DNA of 9,008 nucleotides from assembly GCA_021818905.1 (NCBI GenBank), contig JAKASS010000022.1, positions 1 through 9,008 on the forward strand, written 5' to 3'. The position numbers were made by a program, and so were the translations under genes. The notes under the pieces are model-generated. The model saw only the letters and a program-made list of their open reading frames with translations, did no database searches and had not been told where the DNA came from. Shown piece after piece: positions 109 through 8,568 of this stretch (positions within the stretch are counted from its first letter, which is position 1; every line of letters starts with the position of its first letter). Origin of the DNA: Nanobdellota archaeon. Lineage in GTDB: Archaea > Nanobdellota > Nanobdellia > Parvarchaeales > Parvarchaeaceae.

Positions 109-999
109 CTTTTGCTTTCTAATTGCGGCACTGTTACTAAATACGGTTGATATATAAGCCAAATAAAAAGAGAGCGAAGCTCTCTCGACCCATCGCTCCC
201 ACCGTCCTAACCAATCATCGTCTTTGTAATATCTTACAAGTCCCGCTTCTTCGGCGGGAGTCCTGCCGAGGGAAGAATGCGGCCTTATGAAGTCATAGTA
301 GAACGTCCATAATCTTACGAACAAGTCTCCAGTGTAAAGCTCCTTGAACCCGCGAAGCTCATGGGTATTGGCACGATAGGGATCGTCCCGTCTTTCCATG
401 GGATCATTGTCCTTCTTGTCCTCGAAGGAAGCGCAGCGATGATAACGATTGTGGTAATACCACGATCCCTTGGCTTCCCTTATGACGGAGCCGTATCCGA
501 AGGCTCCATCCGTGGTGATGTTCATGGCTGGCGGGGACTCTTTCATCAGCAGTCTGGCGTTCTTCTTCGTCCTGTCGGAAGCGAGAAAAGCCGTGGCAAA
601 CCTGCTCTCCCTGCAGATGGAAGCCCATACGTAAAAGGACTTCCCACGCGTCTTTACGGACATCTCGTCCATGTGAAGCCTTTCCGTCCTGAAAGGCTTC
701 ATGTCCTTTACGTATCCTATGATCATTTTTCCGTATTCAAGAAACCACCTGAATACGGAATCAACGGACACGGAAAGGAACTTTGCAGCGTCCCTAAGCG
801 ACGATCCTATCAGATGGAGGTGAATACTGCCGATTATGGTGCGTTTCGCATGGTGTTTCCACCTGAAACCGATGTTTTCTACGAACGTCTTGCCACAGGA
901 CGTACAACGGTATCGCTGTACGTTTCCCCTGTTTTTTGTCTTTCTAAAGCCATTTAAATCCACACTGCTGCTTTTACAATAATTACATCGGTTTTCCAT
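100..999 (-). CDS. IS6-family DDE transposase with N-terminal zinc ribbon
   Basis: Catalyses cut-and-join of its own element. From the ATG at 999 it is 299 residues: a zinc ribbon (Cys5, Cys8, Cys32, Cys35), a helix-turn-helix around residues 67-86 (SLRDAAKFLSVSVDSVFRWF), then an RNase H-like DDE domain with Asp111 (HMDEM), Asp164 (TTDGA) and Glu202 (NDPMERR), and a conserved FIRPHSSLGRTPAEEAG segment near the C-terminus. An AGGTGA Shine-Dalgarno lies just before ATG 999; a GTG at 1005 is the alternative start. Oddly, no stop occurs inside the element: the frame reads through the left inverted repeat and ends at TAA 100-102 in host DNA, so the last eight or nine residues come from the target site. 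All catalytic residues are present, so it is probably active. Confidence 0.92.
   Translation of the reverse strand: MENRCNYCKSSSVDLNGFRKTKNRGNVQRYRCTSCGKTFVENIGFRWKHHAKRTIIGSIHLHLIGSSLRDAAKFLSVSVDSVFRWFLEYGKMIIGYVKDMKPFRTERLHMDEMSVKTRGKSFYVWASICRESRFATAFLASDRTKKNARLLMKESPPAMNITTDGAFGYGSVIREAKGSWYYHNRYHRCASFEDKKDNDPMERRDDPYRANTHELRGFKELYTGDLFVRLWTFYYDFIRPHSSLGRTPAEEAGLVRYYKDDDWLGRWERWVERASLSFYLAYISTVFSNSAAIRKQKFI
119..126. repeat. Target-site duplication, left copy (CTAATTGC)
   Basis: CTAATTGC directly precedes the left IS end and is repeated exactly at 1067-1074 directly after the right end. Eight bases is the IS6 duplication length. Confidence 0.92.
127..149 (+). repeat. Left terminal inverted repeat of the IS6 element
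   Basis: 23-bp repeat beginning GGCACTGTTACTAAATAC, matching the reverse complement of 1044-1066 with one difference (T/C at its twelfth base). This end lies inside the 3' end of the transposase reading frame. Confidence 0.93.
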
Positions 1000-1043
1000 T
1001 TTCACCTTAAATAAAGATGGCAGCCGATGTAATTAACATTCAC

Positions 1044-1066
1044 CAACCGTATTTGGTAACAGTGCC
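1044..1066 (-). repeat. Right terminal inverted repeat of the IS6 element
   Basis: 23-bp repeat; read on the minus strand it begins GGCACTGTTACCAAATAC and pairs with 127-149. The transposase start is 45 bases inside it. The A/T-rich TTAATTAC on the minus strand at about 1029-1037 could be the transposase TATA element, giving a leader of only a few bases. Confidence 0.93.
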
Positions 1067-1074
1067 CTAATTGC
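1067..1074. repeat. Target-site duplication, right copy (CTAATTGC)
   Basis: Exact copy of 119-126 directly outside the right IS end. Removing the element plus one copy restores the pre-insertion sequence, which shows no open gene across the junction. Confidence 0.92.
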
Positions 1075-1596: not shown

Positions 1597-2016
1597 TCAA
1601 AGTCTTTCTATCAGTCCGCGACAGAAGGTCAATGCTTCTTTTACTTTCGGAGTGTATTTAGACACGAGATCTTCCAATTCCTTTTCCGATGCTTTATCAT
1701 TTGCGTCGTCAAAAAAGTAACCGCCTATCGGCCGAAGTCTGATAAGGTCGGAAAGTACGAACATATATTCGTTAAAGCGATTGGCGTCTTCTACGCTTAT
1801 CTTCTTGTTTGACTTCAATTGTTTTCTCAACGCGATAGTTATGTCATGCACTTTTGGATAATTTACGTTGAGTGCCATCAAAACGGCTTTAAGAGTTATC
1901 TCCAAGGACATCTCTAATGAATAAGCAGATATGCCGTAGTCTTCGTTTTTGCGAGTGATCTCTGCCGTCCTTAACCATGCTTCCGCCGATTCTATCGCGC
2001 TTTTGCTTTTTCCCAT
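1597..2016 (-). CDS. HEPN-domain protein, toxin-type partner of an MNT antitoxin
   Basis: A 139-residue all-helical protein of the HEPN superfamily, whose members are usually RNA-cleaving toxins. The first helices (SAIESAEAWLRTAEITRKN, then a hydrophobic EMSLEITLKAVLMALNV) and the following VHDITIALRKQ segment match the HEPN pattern of a paired helix bundle with a conserved VHD/THD turn. The catalytic-type motif RX4HXY appears at residues 93-100 as RLRPIGGY: Arg93 and Tyr100 are kept but His is replaced by Gly98. Its start overlaps the end of the upstream MNT gene by 25 bases, so translation is coupled and the two form a pair. Without the histidine it may be a weak or non-RNase member, or belong to an HEPN branch that lacks the motif. 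Confidence 0.8.
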   Translation of the reverse strand: MGKSKSAIESAEAWLRTAEITRKNEDYGISAYSLEMSLEITLKAVLMALNVNYPKVHDITIALRKQLKSNKKISVEDANRFNEYMFVLSDLIRLRPIGGYFFDDANDKASEKELEDLVSKYTPKVKEALTFCRGLIERL

Positions 2017-2585
2017 GACAATTCTTCTCCGAATTCTGAAAAACTCCGTTTATGTTTCACTTTCTCCATGTTTTCCAAAAACCTGCTAAGCGTGCCGTTT
2101 CTGTCATATAAAATAACCCCATAGTCAAGAAAATCTAGGTATAGCGGATGAAAGTTCCCAAGTTCTCTTATATCCAGGATAAATGGGCTCAAAGTGCAAG
2201 GAAGTCCGCGATCGTTTAATTCTACTGCTTCATCGACCATATCGATCTTGATTTTAGAGATCTCAGATGCATTTTTGTACCCGTCATTGACTACGATCAA
2301 CAGGTCTATGTCGCTGTTCTCATTAAAAGTACCTTTGGACACTGAGCCGAAAAGAAGGGTCCCTAAAACGTACTCCTTTTCCTTCAACGCAGATACAAAG
2401 TCGTTGATAAATGATTTAAGTTCGTTTGGGATATCGAGGAATTCAAAGTTTCTGCCGATAGTCATGTTGATTACATCACTGAAGCTTAGCTTCTTTGAGA
2501 GTTTTTTGCTTAGTGTCTCCGCGCTACGCTTAAGCGTGCTGTAAGCTTCGTCATTCATGATAACATTATGAAATCTCTTATTCAT
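1992..2585 (-). CDS. Ribbon-helix-helix/MNT nucleotidyltransferase fusion, antitoxin
   Basis: 197 residues in two parts. Residues about 5-45 (MNDEAYSTLKRSAETLSKK, then LSFSDVINMTIGR) resemble the VapB-type ribbon-helix-helix antitoxin domain (strand, 'DEAY..LK', 'SFSDVI'). Residues about 70-165 are a minimal nucleotidyltransferase: GSVSKGTFNENSDIDLLIVV at 80-99 is the GS-x-SDxD signature, with Gly80-Ser81 and metal-binding Asp92 and Asp94; Asp138 in SPFILDI may be the third acid. In characterised HepT/MntA pairs the MNT enzyme silences its HEPN partner by AMP transfer to a tyrosine. Starting at ATG 2585 keeps the RHH strand and places a TATA-like box 26 bases upstream. It ends with TAG inside the HEPN gene. 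The DNA-binding domain and adjacent inverted repeat suggest autoregulation. Confidence 0.82.
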   Translation of the reverse strand: MNKRFHNVIMNDEAYSTLKRSAETLSKKLSKKLSFSDVINMTIGRNFEFLDIPNELKSFINDFVSALKEKEYVLGTLLFGSVSKGTFNENSDIDLLIVVNDGYKNASEISKIKIDMVDEAVELNDRGLPCTLSPFILDIRELGNFHPLYLDFLDYGVILYDRNGTLSRFLENMEKVKHKRSFSEFGEELSWEKAKAR

Positions 2586-2901: not shown

Positions 2902-3405
2902 ATGAAAAGTAACCTAGAAAATTATTTGGGATCTGATAATATTTTATCTAAAACAGATAAAAGACATGGTGAAGTTTACTGTCTCTTAAAACCAGACGGT
3001 TATAAAATAAGTACAGAAGTTTATAAAGTTATAAATGACAACAATCTGGCGGCTATCGAGATTGGGAGTTTCTATTTGACTAGAGAAGACGTGATGCTGT
3101 TATATCCGCAGCATCAAAACGCGCCTTTTTTAGAAGAACTTATATCTTACATGACTTCGGAAAGGGTAAGTATAATACGAGTAGAGGCGAATCTTCATAA
3201 AAACGAGCTTTTTAATAAGCTCTTCGAAGTGGTGGGCGGCACACACCCAAAAACTGCTAAAAGCGGCACTATAAGGCAGCTATATGGAAAAGAAAGTGAA
3301 ACTTCTTTGGTTATTTATAACGTAATTCACTCACCGAATTCTGATGAAGAGGAATCTAGACTTAAAGTGCTGATACACAAATACTTGAAAAATGTACATG
3401 TATGA
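2902..3405 (+). CDS. Divergent nucleoside-diphosphate-kinase-fold protein
   Basis: 167 residues matching the NDK fold along most of its length. NDK moves the gamma-phosphate of ATP to other NDPs through a phosphohistidine. Visible landmarks: CLLKPDGY at 27-34 (Lys30), LYPQH (Tyr68) and PFLEELISYMTS at 75-86, GGTHP (Thr114), GTIR at 122-125 (Arg125) and the active-site segment YNVIHSPNS with Asn140 and His143, the phosphohistidine position. The arginine that normally precedes VMLG/KLIG is Phe108, and the usual HGSDS after the catalytic His is HSPNS. There are about 20 extra N-terminal residues compared with ordinary NDK. It opens the operon; its TGA overlaps the ATG of the HprK-like gene (ATGA). 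The catalytic core suggests phosphotransfer is retained, but the divergence suggests a specialised role instead of the housekeeping enzyme. Confidence 0.85.
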   Translation: MKSNLENYLGSDNILSKTDKRHGEVYCLLKPDGYKISTEVYKVINDNNLAAIEIGSFYLTREDVMLLYPQHQNAPFLEELISYMTSERVSIIRVEANLHKNELFNKLFEVVGGTHPKTAKSGTIRQLYGKESETSLVIYNVIHSPNSDEEESRLKVLIHKYLKNVHV

Positions 3406-4259
3406 ATACGTTAAGCTTTTTCTTAAGCAATAATCTAGTTAAACTAAGCTCAAATCGACCCGATATCTTAAAGGAGATAAAAAATGATTGGTTCGCACCT
3501 GCTCATCTACCTGGACTTTCATATATAAAACAGGCAAACTCCGGCAACCCGATAGCCATAATTCTTACTCAATCCGATAAAATATTTACTGTGGTGTTAA
3601 GTTATAAAAACAAAAAATGGGGCATATCAGCCACAAAAAGAAAAGTCCGGGCTCGGGATCTTGTACTATTAAGCTTACAGGCATCGACATATGTTAATGA
3701 ATTAAATAGAGTATTCACAGCTCATGCATCAATGATTAAAAACAAATCCGGGGGAGTGCTATTATGCGGCGGTACAGGTAGTGGAAAAACACTCTTGGCG
3801 GTTGCAGCGAAAATGCGCGGCTGGGAATTAGTGTCAAATGAGTTCACTAGCCTTAACGAAAAATTTCAGAACATTGCAAATATAACCAATATTTATTTAG
3901 ATGGGGATCTTGCAAGCATTTTGAAGACAAAAGAAACCGATATAACCTTTAAAAATGTTACGGGGATAAAGACAAAGCTAGTAGTTTTTCTTAAATTGTA
4001 TAAAAGCGCCGTAGCAGAAATTAAAGAAGTTAGTTTTCCAAATAAGTATTTTTATTTATACGAGACATTTTCTAGAATAACAAAATCGGTAGACAACTTA
4101 ATGACAGAAGAGTTTGATATACCATATTTCAATCTAGAAGATTCTGCATCAAGCAGCAACAGAGCAACTTTTGTTAAGAAAATGGCTGAAAAAGTTAAGG
4201 TCGTGATAGCGCAGGGGAATTATAAGAAAGTTCTAGATGATTTAAAAAATTATTTGTGA
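3402..4259 (+). CDS. HprK-like P-loop kinase
   Basis: 285 residues. The C-terminal half resembles the kinase domain of HPr kinase/phosphorylase: AHAS (107-110) before a GGVLLCGGTGSGKT segment (Walker A 123-130, Lys129), then AVAAKMRGWELVSNEF (133-148), the place where HprK has a conserved 'RG..LVADD' turn. Here the acidic pair is Asn146-Glu147, so one acid is kept. Residues 1-100 have no clear match and could hold the partner- or substrate-recognition region. No transmembrane segment is seen. HprK-like kinases outside the sugar phosphotransferase system occur in bacterial peptide-modification and polysaccharide clusters, so a phosphotransfer role here need not involve HPr. The ATGA overlap with the NDK-like gene and zero-base spacing to the glycosyltransferase show co-translation. 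The target is unknown. Confidence 0.75.
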   Translation: MNTLSFFLSNNLVKLSSNRPDILKEIKNDWFAPAHLPGLSYIKQANSGNPIAIILTQSDKIFTVVLSYKNKKWGISATKRKVRARDLVLLSLQASTYVNELNRVFTAHASMIKNKSGGVLLCGGTGSGKTLLAVAAKMRGWELVSNEFTSLNEKFQNIANITNIYLDGDLASILKTKETDITFKNVTGIKTKLVVFLKLYKSAVAEIKEVSFPNKYFYLYETFSRITKSVDNLMTEEFDIPYFNLEDSASSSNRATFVKKMAEKVKVVIAQGNYKKVLDDLKNYL

Positions 4260-5372
4260 ATGCCGATGGAAGCAACTCACTTATTCGAAATGAGTATGAA
4301 GCCGATATCCGGCAGTAGAAACTATGTTTACAACTTAATAAACAATCAAAATAAATTTATTCGAACGTCTCTGTTATTCCAAAAAAGCGCTGGAAGCAAA
4401 CTTCCACATACGAGGTTAATACCTGTATTGCATCACTCTTTTCATAGCTGTGCATGGTTCAAGGAGAATAAAAGAGCGGCAAATAGTGCAATAAAAAGCT
4501 GCGCTTCTGCACTTAATAGTTATATTAAAAATAAAAAGAACAGATGTATAGTTTTAAACGTACACCATGTAGGTTCAATGCTTTTATCTGCGGCCCCTTC
4601 TTCCATAGCGTTTGATTTACCTATAGTAGTTACTAGTCACGGAACCGGGATATATCAAAATTATGATAATAGCTTAATACGCCACGCACTAGAAACGTAT
4701 GCGGACAGGGTAATCGCAGTTAGCAAAGCCGTTAAAAAATTTATAAGTTCTAACACAGACTTCAGTGCGAAAAGAATAAAAGTGATATACCCCGGGGTTG
4801 ACACGGGTGTTTTTTCTCCTTCAAATTTCTCTAGTGAGATATTTAAGATATACGGCGATTATGTGCTCTTTTTTGGGAGAATAGAATATGAAAAAGGCGC
4901 ACATTTACTGCCGAAAATAGCCGAAAAACTCCCTAAAAATCTAAAACTCATTATTGTCGGCGATGGTAAAGCGCTAAGTGAGATTGCTATGCAAGTCAAA
5001 AAGAAAAACCTGGCACATAAAGTGGTTTTTACAGGTTATGTCCCCGAGGATAAACTGAAAGTTCTTGTGGCAACCGCAAAAGCCATCTTGATACCTTCAA
5101 TGTTCGAGGAGCCATTCCCTCTTGTATTCCTGGAATCAATAGCGTCAGGGATTCCTGTGGTTATGTCAAAAAAGGGAGGTATGAATGAGATAAGGGATAG
5201 TGCGGGGATATCAAAGGTAGCGTTAGATCCGGGTGAATTCGCTTCCGCGGCTGTCAAACTCGCTACGGAAACCACAGGAAAAACTAAAAACGGACTAATA
5301 AAAATGGCATCTGGGTTTTCTTGGGGAGCAATAGCCGAGAAGTATGTGGAGTTGTATAAAAAATTGATTTGA
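4260..5372 (+). CDS. GT4-family glycosyltransferase
   Basis: 370-residue retaining glycosyltransferase with the GT-B fold, which moves a sugar from a nucleotide donor to an acceptor. N-terminal domain: GSRNYVYNL (18-26), replacing the usual glycine-rich GG.ERHV.EL motif, then VTSHGTG (124-130) and ADRVIAVSKAVKKFI (148-162). C-terminal domain: KVIYPGVDTGVFSP (174-187), FFGRIEYEKG (204-213), IIVGDG (231-236), TGYVPEDKL (258-266) and the donor-site EX7E motif, Glu284 to Glu292 (EPFPLVFLE), followed by SGIPVV and GGMNEI. Length is normal and the core is intact. The ATG directly follows the TGA of the HprK-like gene; an ATG two codons in (4266) is the alternative. Sugar and acceptor cannot be read from sequence. 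It may be regulated by, or share substrates with, the two upstream phosphotransfer proteins. Confidence 0.93.
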   Translation: MPMEATHLFEMSMKPISGSRNYVYNLINNQNKFIRTSLLFQKSAGSKLPHTRLIPVLHHSFHSCAWFKENKRAANSAIKSCASALNSYIKNKKNRCIVLNVHHVGSMLLSAAPSSIAFDLPIVVTSHGTGIYQNYDNSLIRHALETYADRVIAVSKAVKKFISSNTDFSAKRIKVIYPGVDTGVFSPSNFSSEIFKIYGDYVLFFGRIEYEKGAHLLPKIAEKLPKNLKLIIVGDGKALSEIAMQVKKKNLAHKVVFTGYVPEDKLKVLVATAKAILIPSMFEEPFPLVFLESIASGIPVVMSKKGGMNEIRDSAGISKVALDPGEFASAAVKLATETTGKTKNGLIKMASGFSWGAIAEKYVELYKKLI

Positions 5373-5395: not shown

Positions 5396-5402
5396 TTTAT
5401 AA
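5396..5402 (+). promoter_or_regulatory. TATA-like promoter of the HD/hydrolase pair
   Basis: TTTATAA centred 30 bases before ATG 5429. The spacing and the 56-base gap after the glycosyltransferase stop argue that the HD and hydrolase genes have their own transcript. Confidence 0.5.
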
Positions 5403-5428: not shown

Positions 5429-6067
5429 ATGGAAGCCGAAACTGAAGGAAAAATGGTAGATATAATGAGAAACATTTTTATCGACAGGGAGGAAGATTCT
5501 GGGGGGTTGGGTTATAGGTTCTTCCATTCTTATCGTGTTTATAAAATGTGCAAAGTTTTTTTGAGCATGAACGAGGTATCCAGTAAAAACCCTGATGAAG
5601 ACGTCCTTTTGACTGTAGCACTCTTTCATGACATAGGAAGATCAAAAAGCAGTGACAAAGTAATGAAGGCGGTAATGCCTGGACATGACGAAGAATCCGC
5701 AAAAATGCTGCACAAACTTTTGGATGGAGTTGTTGCGGATAGTGTTATAAAGACTACGGCAGGGATACTCCATAACTACCTAGACGATAATTACAAGAGC
5801 ATAGAGAAGGAACTGCTTTCATATGCTGACGATCTGGATGAGATAGGCGCACTTGACGTATGGAGGATGTTCACATTCGCCGCTTACAACAAGAGGACCG
5901 CGGCTAAGCAACTGGACTATTGGAAGGACAAGGAATCAAAAAAATATAGCGGGGCCTGGATAAACAGGTTTAGGATAGAAAGCATAAAGAAGATAGCTGA
6001 AGATCGTATAAGAACACTTAACGATTTTATGCTGGAGTTCGATAAAGAGTTCAACACTATTGTTTAA
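5429..6067 (+). CDS. HD-superfamily metal-dependent phosphohydrolase
   Basis: 212 residues from ATG 5429. A TTG six codons upstream is in frame, but the TATA-like box sits 30 bases before the ATG. HD-domain ligands are in order: His33 (FFHSYRVYKM), His67-Asp68 (LFHDIGR), His86 (MPGHDEESA), His115 (GILHNY) and an aspartate near 134 (SYADDLDEIG). This is the layout of small single-domain HD proteins that cleave phosphate esters or nucleotides using divalent metals; the extra histidines would suit a two-metal site. No regulatory domain or membrane segment is seen. One base separates its TAA from the hydrolase ATG, so the two act together, but the substrate cannot be told. Confidence 0.88.
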   Translation: MEAETEGKMVDIMRNIFIDREEDSGGLGYRFFHSYRVYKMCKVFLSMNEVSSKNPDEDVLLTVALFHDIGRSKSSDKVMKAVMPGHDEESAKMLHKLLDGVVADSVIKTTAGILHNYLDDNYKSIEKELLSYADDLDEIGALDVWRMFTFAAYNKRTAAKQLDYWKDKESKKYSGAWINRFRIESIKKIAEDRIRTLNDFMLEFDKEFNTIV

Positions 6068-6068
6068 C

Positions 6069-6965
6069 ATGGTGACAACGCGCGTAGCATTACATATAAG
6101 CAAATGCGAACTGGTCGATTTTTTCACCTTGGATTGCTTATGGCTGCAAGGTTTATTGCTTAGAGCAAAACCAGATTCTCAGATAGCTGTCGTTTATGTG
6201 CATGGGGTAGACAGTAATTTTTACAGAAGCCATTTACCTATTTTCGTTTTTGACTACATAAAAGCCAAGGGAGTATCTGTATTCCTTGTTAATAACAGGG
6301 GACATGACCCGATAAATCTTTTGAGGGATAATAAGGGAAATAGCATTCTAAGCGGAGGCAATGTAGAGAGATTTGAAGATTGCTTATTAGATATCGAGGG
6401 CGCGCTTGATAGGCTATCTGGATTAGGTTACAAAAAGTTTGTATTAATGGCTCACAGCGGCGGTTCACAAAAAGTGGCGTATTACCTAAACAACAAAACG
6501 GACGCAAGGATAGTAGGCGCAGTATTGATAGCACCTCCAGATGATTACAAAGTTTTTAAAAAAGTTCTGGGGGATAAGTATAAAAAAACGATAAGGGCTG
6601 CTAAACTGAGAATCAAAACCTCGCTCGCAGATAAGCCATCCGATGAGTTTCTACATTTTAAGTCCGCTAGAAGAATATTATCACTATGTGATACAGATAA
6701 TTTTGAAGCAAGAGTATTTAATCTAGAGCAGGGCTTCCACGAATTTGGAGGTATAAATAAAAAAATTCTAATCATACTAGCAGGAAACGATGAACATGTA
6801 GAGGGCCCGCGGCAATTAATGCTTAAATTAAAAGAAGCAAATGAGTCCGCAACAGTAAAAATAATTAAAAATGCAAAGCATTCGTTCATAGGCTATGAAG
6901 AAAGCGTGGCCAAAGAAGTAAACAAATGGCTACTTAAAAACGCTTTATCAAATATTTGTTTTTAA
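6069..6965 (+). CDS. Alpha/beta-hydrolase, resembling the UPF0613/DUF1749 group
   Basis: 298 residues from ATG 6069 (a TTG at 6060 would overlap the HD gene's end). Alpha/beta-hydrolase landmarks: oxyanion-side HGVDSNF (45-51), NNRGHD (75-80), nucleophile elbow LMAHSGGSQKVAYYL with Ser130, acid Asp241 in ILAGNDEHV and catalytic His271 in NAKHSF. The HSGGSQ...YYL elbow recalls the HSTGxQD..YYL of the DUF1749/UPF0613 family. No signal peptide or lipid anchor is visible, so it is probably cytoplasmic. Likely an esterase or thioesterase; the substrate is unknown. The stop is 8 bases before the left end of an IS5-like element, so the C-terminus seems original or nearly so, but a lost downstream gene cannot be excluded. 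Confidence 0.88.
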   Translation: MVTTRVALHISKCELVDFFTLDCLWLQGLLLRAKPDSQIAVVYVHGVDSNFYRSHLPIFVFDYIKAKGVSVFLVNNRGHDPINLLRDNKGNSILSGGNVERFEDCLLDIEGALDRLSGLGYKKFVLMAHSGGSQKVAYYLNNKTDARIVGAVLIAPPDDYKVFKKVLGDKYKKTIRAAKLRIKTSLADKPSDEFLHFKSARRILSLCDTDNFEARVFNLEQGFHEFGGINKKILIILAGNDEHVEGPRQLMLKLKEANESATVKIIKNAKHSFIGYEESVAKEVNKWLLKNALSNICF

Positions 6966-7868
6966 TGCGGTCTGGCTCTGTAGAAATCCTATGATAATAA
7001 TATAAGCAAGCTGTATGCATCGCCGGACGTCGTAGACTACGTCGATCACCTTCACCTCCTTCAGCTTGTCCGGATGCAGCCTGCTGCTTAAGGTGGAGCC
7101 GAACTTCCTCTTCTCCACGGAGTTGACAGTCTCCACAAGGCTTCGTTTATGGTATTCCGACAATGGAAAGTCCGTCTTCATCAGCTTCCTCCACCTGCCG
7201 TGAGTCCTCCATATCGGAACGCCTTCGTTCCTTGCAGGGATGATGGATCCTGCGTGGAGTCTCTCCCTTGAAAACCTGTGGTCTCTCTACGGATTGTAGC
7301 CTTTATCAGCCAGTATCTTACCGATCTTTACCATTTCGGCGGCTTTCTTCATGAGCGGTATGAAGGTCTTATTGTCACTTTCATACCTTCGGTTAGAGGA
7401 AGAAGCCGCTATAGCCTTCGTCTTCGGGTCTACGACGATGGAATGCTTGGTAAACACTCTTCTATGCCGTTCTTCTCCTATTCTCCACAGGTAGTGATAG
7501 GAAGCATTGCGTCCTTCATATCCGGTGGAGTCTATGGCGGCGTCCATCCTCTTGAGACCAAACAGTCTAAACGCGAAGGACAGCATCGCGTCCCATACTC
7601 GCATCGGTATCCTCCTGAAGAACTTCTGCAGCGTCGTATAATGAGGCGCCTTGTCGAGGCCAAAGAGCCCCCTGAGCTCTTCCAGCTCGTCTACGACATC
7701 CCGATAAGGCTTTCTCTCGTGTTTCATCAGGCAGATGCAGGCTGCCAGCTGTGGCTGCGTGTAGGTCTTCTTGGAGAACTTGTTCGAGAAGGGCGACAAC
7801 GCCCTCCTCGCTATGCCCAATACGATGGACGCAAATCTTTTATAGTAAGGACTCCCATTTTTATTCAT
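6948..7868 (-). pseudogene. IS5-like DDE transposase interrupted by one in-frame TAG
   Basis: From ATG 7868 the frame runs 193 codons, meets TAG at 7289-7287 and then continues open in the same frame to TGA 6950-6948, about 305 residues in all. The N-terminal part carries the substrate-binding helices (TYTQPQLAACICLMKH, DKAPHYTTLQKFF) and Asp113 (AAIDSTGYEG) and Asp188 (LADKGY); the catalytic Glu246 (SLVETVNSVEKRKFG) is beyond the TAG. So the stop separates the catalytic acids and should abolish activity unless suppressed. It falls at a normally variable position after DKGY, where one base change from CAG, AAG or GAG would create it. No frameshift is needed. Like the IS6 gene, it reads through the inverted repeat and stops in the neighbouring gene. 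Confidence 0.88.
6974..6990 (+). repeat. Left inverted repeat of the IS5-like element
   Basis: GGCTCTGTAGAAATCCT, the exact reverse complement of 7924-7940. The transposase frame continues through it into the hydrolase 3' end. Confidence 0.92.
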
Positions 7869-7917
7869 AAGCACCTCTTTTTTTGTTTATTTACTATAAT
7901 AATTAAAGAGGTGCTTA
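7868..7917 (-). promoter_or_regulatory. Hairpin enclosing the IS5-like transposase promoter and masking its ribosome site
   Basis: TAAGCACCTCTTT (7868-7880) is the exact reverse complement of AAAGAGGTGCTTA (7905-7917): 13 perfect pairs around a 24-base loop. The downstream arm contains the transposase Shine-Dalgarno (GAGGTG) and the first base of its ATG. The loop contains the A/T-rich promoter. A transcript entering from outside would form the hairpin and hide the start, while one starting at the internal promoter would lack the first arm. IS10 and IS50 use this arrangement to avoid activation by outside transcription. Confidence 0.6.
7888..7900 (-). promoter_or_regulatory. TATA-like promoter of the IS5-like transposase
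   Basis: ATTATAGTAAATA on the minus strand, centred about 26 bases before ATG 7868, would give a leaderless or very short-leader transcript. Confidence 0.4.
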
Positions 7918-8568
7918 CTTTAGAGGATTTCTACAGAGCCTAATTGGTTTTTGAAGTAAAATATAAAATCGTCTGTTTTTAAAGTAAAATCTTATTGGTT
8001 TATAATTTCTGAATAGACGCTTAAGTTCTGCTTTTGTAAAGTAATGGTAATAGTCTCCATGACTACCATGCCTGTATGTTCCTTTTTCCCTTGTTTTGAT
8101 TTGACCGTAAAATCTTTTCCTTTGCCATGTAAAATGCTGATCACTTTCGATATAAAAATACCCACCGGTTTTTATTATCCTATCAATTTCCTTTACGTAC
8201 CCTTCAATATCAGTCATTTGTGCCTGGTACAGAGCCCGAACCGCAATTACCGCGTCAAAAAAGCTGTCTTTATAGGGCAACTCACCTTTAAGCCTTGATA
8301 ATTTGAATTTTACTTTGGTTTTAGCGCGTTCCTGTTTCGTCATGGCCATTTGTATTGCCATTTCCGATTTGTCGAAACCATAGATCTTGAACCCCCCCTT
8401 TGCTAAGAATATGGAGTTTCTACCAGTACCACAATAAAAATCAAGGACTCGTTTTACTCCTTTTTTCTTGAAAAAGGTGCTTAAATTACTCATGCTTTTA
8501 GATGGGTGTTGTTGCCCTACACCCGAGCCCTTATAATAATTTTCATAACCATCTTTCAAACATACCAC
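7915..8568 (-). CDS. Class I SAM-dependent methyltransferase, tail replaced by IS sequence
   Basis: 217 residues with a Rossmann-fold methyltransferase core: motif I VLDFYCGTGRNSIFL (41-55), acidic residue binding the SAM ribose in YGFDKS (Asp66), motif IV FFDAVIAVRALYQ (103-115), then EIDRIIKTGGYFYIES (127-142) and the closing strand FYILLQK (201-207). The fold is therefore complete. The last eight residues (RLCRNPLK) and the TAA come from the right end of the IS5-like element, so the original C-terminus is lost. GTG at 8568 is chosen because a TATA-like box lies 27 bases upstream and no ATG is in frame before motif I. Small stand-alone enzymes of this type (TehB-like and relatives) methylate small molecules, but the substrate cannot be told. 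It faces the hydrolase gene across the IS. Confidence 0.85.
   Translation of the reverse strand: MVCLKDGYENYYKGSGVGQQHPSKSMSNLSTFFKKKGVKRVLDFYCGTGRNSIFLAKGGFKIYGFDKSEMAIQMAMTKQERAKTKVKFKLSRLKGELPYKDSFFDAVIAVRALYQAQMTDIEGYVKEIDRIIKTGGYFYIESDQHFTWQRKRFYGQIKTREKGTYRHGSHGDYYHYFTKAELKRLFRNYKPIRFYFKNRRFYILLQKPIRLCRNPLK
7924..7940 (-). repeat. Right inverted repeat of the IS5-like element
   Basis: Exact 17-bp partner of 6974-6990. It codes for the end of the methyltransferase (RLCRNPLK) when read on the minus strand. Confidence 0.92.

Follow-up and report, generated by a model that had tools for sequence, protein, structure and literature searches.

An NDK-fold protein, a PEPCK/HprK-fold kinase and a GT4 glycosyltransferase in a putative accessory operon of a Nanobdellota archaeon

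What could an NDK-like protein, a P-loop kinase and a glycosyltransferase be doing in a single row of closely packed genes? The question is raised by a complete contig of 9,008 bases (C23, the whole of which was analysed and is called the window here) from a 945 kb Nanobdellota genome in 25 contigs, where the three genes, followed by those for an HD protein and an alpha/beta hydrolase, are carried on the plus strand between two insertion sequences (Table 1). The initial annotation had taken the trio for a cassette without a name, and this holds, since no published description of an NDK-kinase-GT4 gene set was found in the literature searched. The reading that best fits the data presented below is that the trio is an accessory unit, confined to its lineage and related to a kinase-glycosyltransferase neighbourhood of archaea.

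Gene layout and genomic setting

The stop codon of the NDK-like gene (TGA, 3403-3405) overlaps the ATG of the kinase gene at 3402 by four bases (ATGA), the stop codon of the kinase gene (TGA, 4257-4259) is followed directly by the GT4 ATG at 4260 with zero spacing, and all three frames are intact. The start and stop codons are thus exactly as claimed, which supports the assignment of the three genes to one operon. A TATA-like sequence, CTATAATA, is present on the plus strand at 2872-2879, 23-30 bases 5' of the first ATG and at a spacing as in leaderless archaeal promoters. The single TATA box ascribed to the three genes is therefore there, while its role as the only promoter of the trio is plausible but unproven. 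With a second TATA-like box (TTTATAA, plus strand, 5396-5402) located 5' of the HD gene, the trio is likely to form one transcript and the HD and hydrolase genes a separate one. Stoichiometric co-translation of the trio may be inferred from the gene spacing only, and the HD phosphohydrolase and the DUF1749-like alpha/beta hydrolase are possible but unproven partners.

Table 1 Features of the 9,008-base window.
Feature	Position	Strand	Length	Basis or remark
Insertion sequence	121-1072			29-base terminal inverted repeats, IS240-type DDE transposase
HEPN/MNT-type toxin-antitoxin pair	1597-2585	-		
NDK-like gene	2902-3405	+	167 aa	Pfam NDK, 25-NDK alignment, structure model
PEPCK/HprK-fold P-loop kinase gene	3402-4259	+	285 aa	Profile searches, structure model
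GT4 glycosyltransferase gene	4260-5372	+	370 aa	Pfam Glycos_transf_1, hydropathy
HD-domain phosphohydrolase gene	5429-6067	+		Pfam HD 7.8e-10
Alpha/beta hydrolase gene (DUF1749-like)	6069-6965	+		Adjoins HD gene; Pfam DUF1749 1.1e-15
Second insertion sequence (DDE_Tnp_1)	6974-7940			Just 3' of hydrolase gene; transposase frame interrupted

A search of 27 congeners (12 of which were sampled for the NDK) gave no orthologue of any of the three proteins or of the HD protein, the best GT4 matches in congeners being approximately 33% identical, and because of this absence we regard the trio as part of an accessory island between the two insertion sequences. The GC3 values are 0.317 for the NDK-like gene, 0.319 for the kinase gene, 0.365 for the GT4 gene and 0.458 for the HD gene, against a background mean of 0.412 with a standard deviation of 0.055, so the NDK-like and kinase genes share an unusually low GC3, which together with the absence from congeners fits an acquired accessory unit. 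Defence-system models gave no match to the five plus-strand genes, and no RNA families were found in the window. The nucleotidyltransferase of the HEPN/MNT pair has an N-terminal extension of approximately 55 residues that matches a VapB antitoxin very weakly. A copy of the second insertion sequence, 90% identical and with a longer open frame of 307 aa, is present on contig C4 (L093).

Properties of the three proteins

The NDK-like protein is matched by the Pfam NDK model with 65.4 bits (E 6.4e-18), above the cut-off of 27, and falls below the NCBIfam equivalog cut-off (best 60.8 bits vs 155), while its structure model (pLDDT 88.7) has the NDK fold and matches solved NDKs. It was aligned with the canonical NDK of the same genome and with 24 NDKs of the phylum (25 in all), equivalent positions being given in the standard NDK residue numbering. 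It is clear from this alignment that K30, Y68, F76, T114, R125 and N140, the equivalents of K12, Y52, F60, T94, R105 and N115, are retained along with the catalytic histidine (H143), whereas R88, S120 and E129, each conserved in 24-25 of the 25 aligned NDKs, are replaced by F108, P145 and L154, respectively. In human NDK, S120 and E129 form a hydrogen-bond network to the catalytic histidine H118 (PMC8080780). The histidine said to be kept by this divergent NDK is thus present, but with its three support residues lost H143 is no proof of normal NDK activity, and an NDK-fold protein that has the histidine without the residues that activate it is a candidate for repurposing. It differs from a nucleoside diphosphate kinase also in being the second copy in its genome and in having an operon partner; the canonical gene lies at 78.7-79.2 kb on contig C4, amid housekeeping genes in a setting that is also conserved among the congeners. 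Among the 30 best ordinary NDK loci of the phylum, none adjoins a kinase or a GT4 gene, and no relatives of the NDK-like protein were found in viral contigs.

The second protein had been described as an HprK-type P-loop kinase. Its relation to the P-loop fold is borne out: a profile built from the kinase and its relatives matches solved HPr kinases at 1.6e-5, the PEPCK/HprK P-loop fold was recovered by Foldseek as a structural match over the domain (E 2.9e-6), and both an upstream histidine (H108) and a Walker A motif (GGTGSGKT, K129) are present, as in HprK/P. All curated HPr kinase cut-offs are missed, however, by a wide distance, with 15.5 vs 33.3 bits for Pfam Hpr_kinase_C, 22.6 vs 240 for TIGR00679 and 27.1 vs 200 for HprK_rel_A (TIGR04352, HprK-related kinase A), and N146-E147 is found where the HPr kinase 1jb1 has its catalytic D-D pair. 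At whole length the model (pLDDT 73) is nearer to PEPCK (VIA-align Z 13.3, rmsd 4.0, 239 residues) than to HPr kinase, with which it aligns more weakly. Identification as an HPr kinase was therefore rejected on account of the cut-offs and the altered D-D pair, and PEPCK/HprK-fold kinase is the accurate label. In the tree the kinase sits on a long branch, loosely placed with that of genome G053 (93/93). No relatives were found in phage and plasmid collections or in viral contigs, and the only match to its peptide patterns in named genomes was a Pacearchaeota contig, taken to be the same record as that of G040.

The third protein matches Pfam Glycos_transf_1 with 92.4 bits (E 3e-26; gathering cut-off 26.4) and resembles GT4 enzymes such as GlgA, BshA, MshA and the archaeal Agl16 type in having both GT4 Pfam domains and an intact E-x7-E motif (EPFPLVFLE), but it differs from them in falling under all equivalog cut-offs. 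Hydropathy predicts no membrane segments, and the enzyme is therefore probably cytosolic. No relatives of this GT4 were found in viral contigs.

Recurrence of a kinase-glycosyltransferase neighbourhood

The kinase profile was run against 371 genomes of the phylum, 39 of which gave a match at a loose threshold and 19 at a strict one, some of the strict matches covering the P-loop region only. An NDK gene near the kinase was seen in one of these 19 genomes, that of the window, whereas the other 18 had none at a distance of up to 4 kb, so the trio as such is not a conserved unit. Adjacency in this genome alone, which had been named beforehand as a refuting finding, thus holds only by half, since the link between kinase and GT4 recurs elsewhere: over the same distance, 8 of the other 18 genomes had a GT4 gene, against an expectation of 1.02 based on gene density (P 2e-6), and 10 had a Nudix hydrolase gene, against 0.85 (P 7e-10). 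The P values treat as independent genomes that are related, though spread over several families. The glycosylation context proposed for the locus is hereby strengthened, as the association between this family of kinases and GT4 enzymes is significant in the phylum.

Reading the neighbourhoods directly, with annotation in part, we found a recurring set of GT2, GT4, kinase and Nudix genes in seven genomes, often with a HAD phosphatase and a methyltransferase (Nanobdellia loci L075, L076, L077, L078, L079, L080 and L081). The order in G138 is HAD-GT2-GT4-kinase-methyltransferase-hexapeptide transferase-Nudix, where the GT2 gene overlaps the GT4 gene, and the GT4 gene the kinase gene, by a single base, and that in G229 is kinase-GT4-GT2/Nudix fusion; comparable sets are present in G155, G260, G083 and the two congeners G020 and G016. 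Other members of the kinase family lie beside genes for an inositol-1-phosphate synthase, a paralogue of the CTP synthase N-domain, PfkB and Nudix (G382, L086:2563-8587), beside a dehydroquinate-synthase-like cyclase and Nudix (G308, L084:5048-9698), these two loci being possible cyclitol pathways, or in a polysaccharide locus with a deacetylase, GT2s and a flippase (G239).

The window shares with these Nanobdellia neighbourhoods the pairing of a PEPCK/HprK-fold kinase with a GT4, but it has an NDK-like gene instead, and no GT2, HAD or operon-linked methyltransferase genes were found in it, nor a Nudix gene on the 9-kb contig, whose ends bound the view. Its GT4 also falls, though on a long branch, outside the supported 7-member clade of kinase-neighbouring GT4s (97/96). 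Given this position and the loose placement of the kinase, the pair in the window may have met independently of the recurring neighbourhood.

Possible functions of the trio

Since the neighbourhoods of the kinase family have mostly to do with the assembly of sugars or cyclitols and with the handling of nucleotides, and since there is a parallel in lasso peptide tailoring, we favour a phosphorylated glycoconjugate as the product. Our proposal, which is tentative and which we hold to be somewhat short of probable, is that the trio forms a cytosolic accessory operon for such a conjugate, with the substrate, the order of the steps and the joint product being what we infer. The GT4 would use a nucleotide-activated sugar to glycosylate a small-molecule, lipid or peptide acceptor, the kinase would phosphorylate this acceptor or the added sugar, and the NDK-like protein would assist by handling nucleotides or as a scaffold, in a place of the kind held beside related kinases by Nudix hydrolases or the CTP-synthase paralogue.

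The parallel comes from PsmK, which phosphorylates a peptide serine before PsmN installs hexoses on the phosphate (PMC9266682). As in the PadeK, ThcoK and PsmK/PsmN systems, a kinase of the HPr kinase kind stands beside a hexose-adding enzyme, and of the His-Lys-Asp-Asp motif of the lasso kinases the window kinase retains the His and Lys, with N-E for D-D. Unlike those systems, the window encodes a true GT4 and not a nucleotidyltransferase-like protein, and neither a lasso precursor nor the B/C enzymes were found as Pfam matches among the ten larger window ORFs.

The strongest rival explanation, although we consider it unlikely, is that the trio was assembled by chance from unrelated and partly eroded foreign genes on an IS-rich island and has no joint role. 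The absence of orthologues from the congeners sampled, the insertion sequences on either side, the active-site losses of the NDK-like protein, the change from D-D to N-E in the kinase and the single occurrence of the NDK-kinase adjacency all speak for such an assembly. It is less easily reconciled with three intact frames joined by overlapping or zero-spaced start and stop codons, with an intact GT4 motif, and with a kinase-GT4 association that elsewhere is far over chance.

A local supply of nucleotides, in which the NDK-like enzyme would convert the UDP, GDP or TDP that the GT4 leaves behind to the triphosphate again while the kinase used ATP for sugar activation, appears distinctly improbable. 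The modelled NDK fold appears intact and the catalytic His is retained with the Lys, Tyr, Thr, Arg105 and Asn equivalents, but the R88, S120 and E129 equivalents that nearly all relatives conserve are lost, two of them from the very network that holds the active histidine (S120-E129-H118; PMC8080780), and the genome has its canonical NDK elsewhere, all of which speaks against the suggested local NTP supply, if by an ordinary NDK. Regulation, by which glycosylation would be switched when the kinase phosphorylates a Ser or Thr residue of the GT4, or of some other enzyme, we give slightly less chance still: proteins are substrates of HPr kinase homologues and the kinase adjoins a GT4 in several genomes, but its relatives also occur beside cyclitol and sugar-kinase genes without a GT4, and its whole-length fold match is PEPCK, a small-molecule enzyme. 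The His-to-Ser or Thr phosphorelay proposed earlier, here taken as one in which the kinase would receive phosphate from the histidine of the NDK-like protein and hand it to the GT4, is hardly credible, for beyond the presence of the histidine and the adjacency of the genes nothing speaks for it, while the NDK is beside no other kinase of the family, the histidine-activating residues are lost and a Pfam scan of the window ORFs found no receiver-type domain.

Returning to the phosphorylated glycoconjugate, a wider proposal, which we regard as doubtful, is that Nanobdellia possess an undescribed pathway in which the kinase, GT4 and GT2 enzymes and a nucleotide-cleaning enzyme, usually a Nudix hydrolase, would yield a glycan or cyclitol conjugate that bears phosphate, the window being a variant in which a repurposed, non-canonical NDK-fold partner would take the place of the Nudix enzyme. 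No published description of the kinase-GT4-GT2-Nudix neighbourhood was found, and we consider this recurring neighbourhood a more valuable lead than the unique trio. In DPANN archaea the glycoconjugates, both those of the surface and the small-molecule ones, may govern host attachment and are almost uncharacterised. A kinase family with a statistical link to glycosyltransferases and to Nudix hydrolases offers a concrete entry point to them.

Within the neighbourhood two gene fusions were seen, GT2-Nudix (L077:8469-9797) and Nudix-methyltransferase (L075:3984-5138), and two congeners carry a divergent pair of kinase paralogues arranged tail to tail (L075:6085-7802 and L076:6083-7843). In a further congener (G015, L082:9397-10630) a kinase gene interrupted by stop codons lies 3' of a GT2 gene at a contig end and is probably a decayed copy of the neighbourhood.
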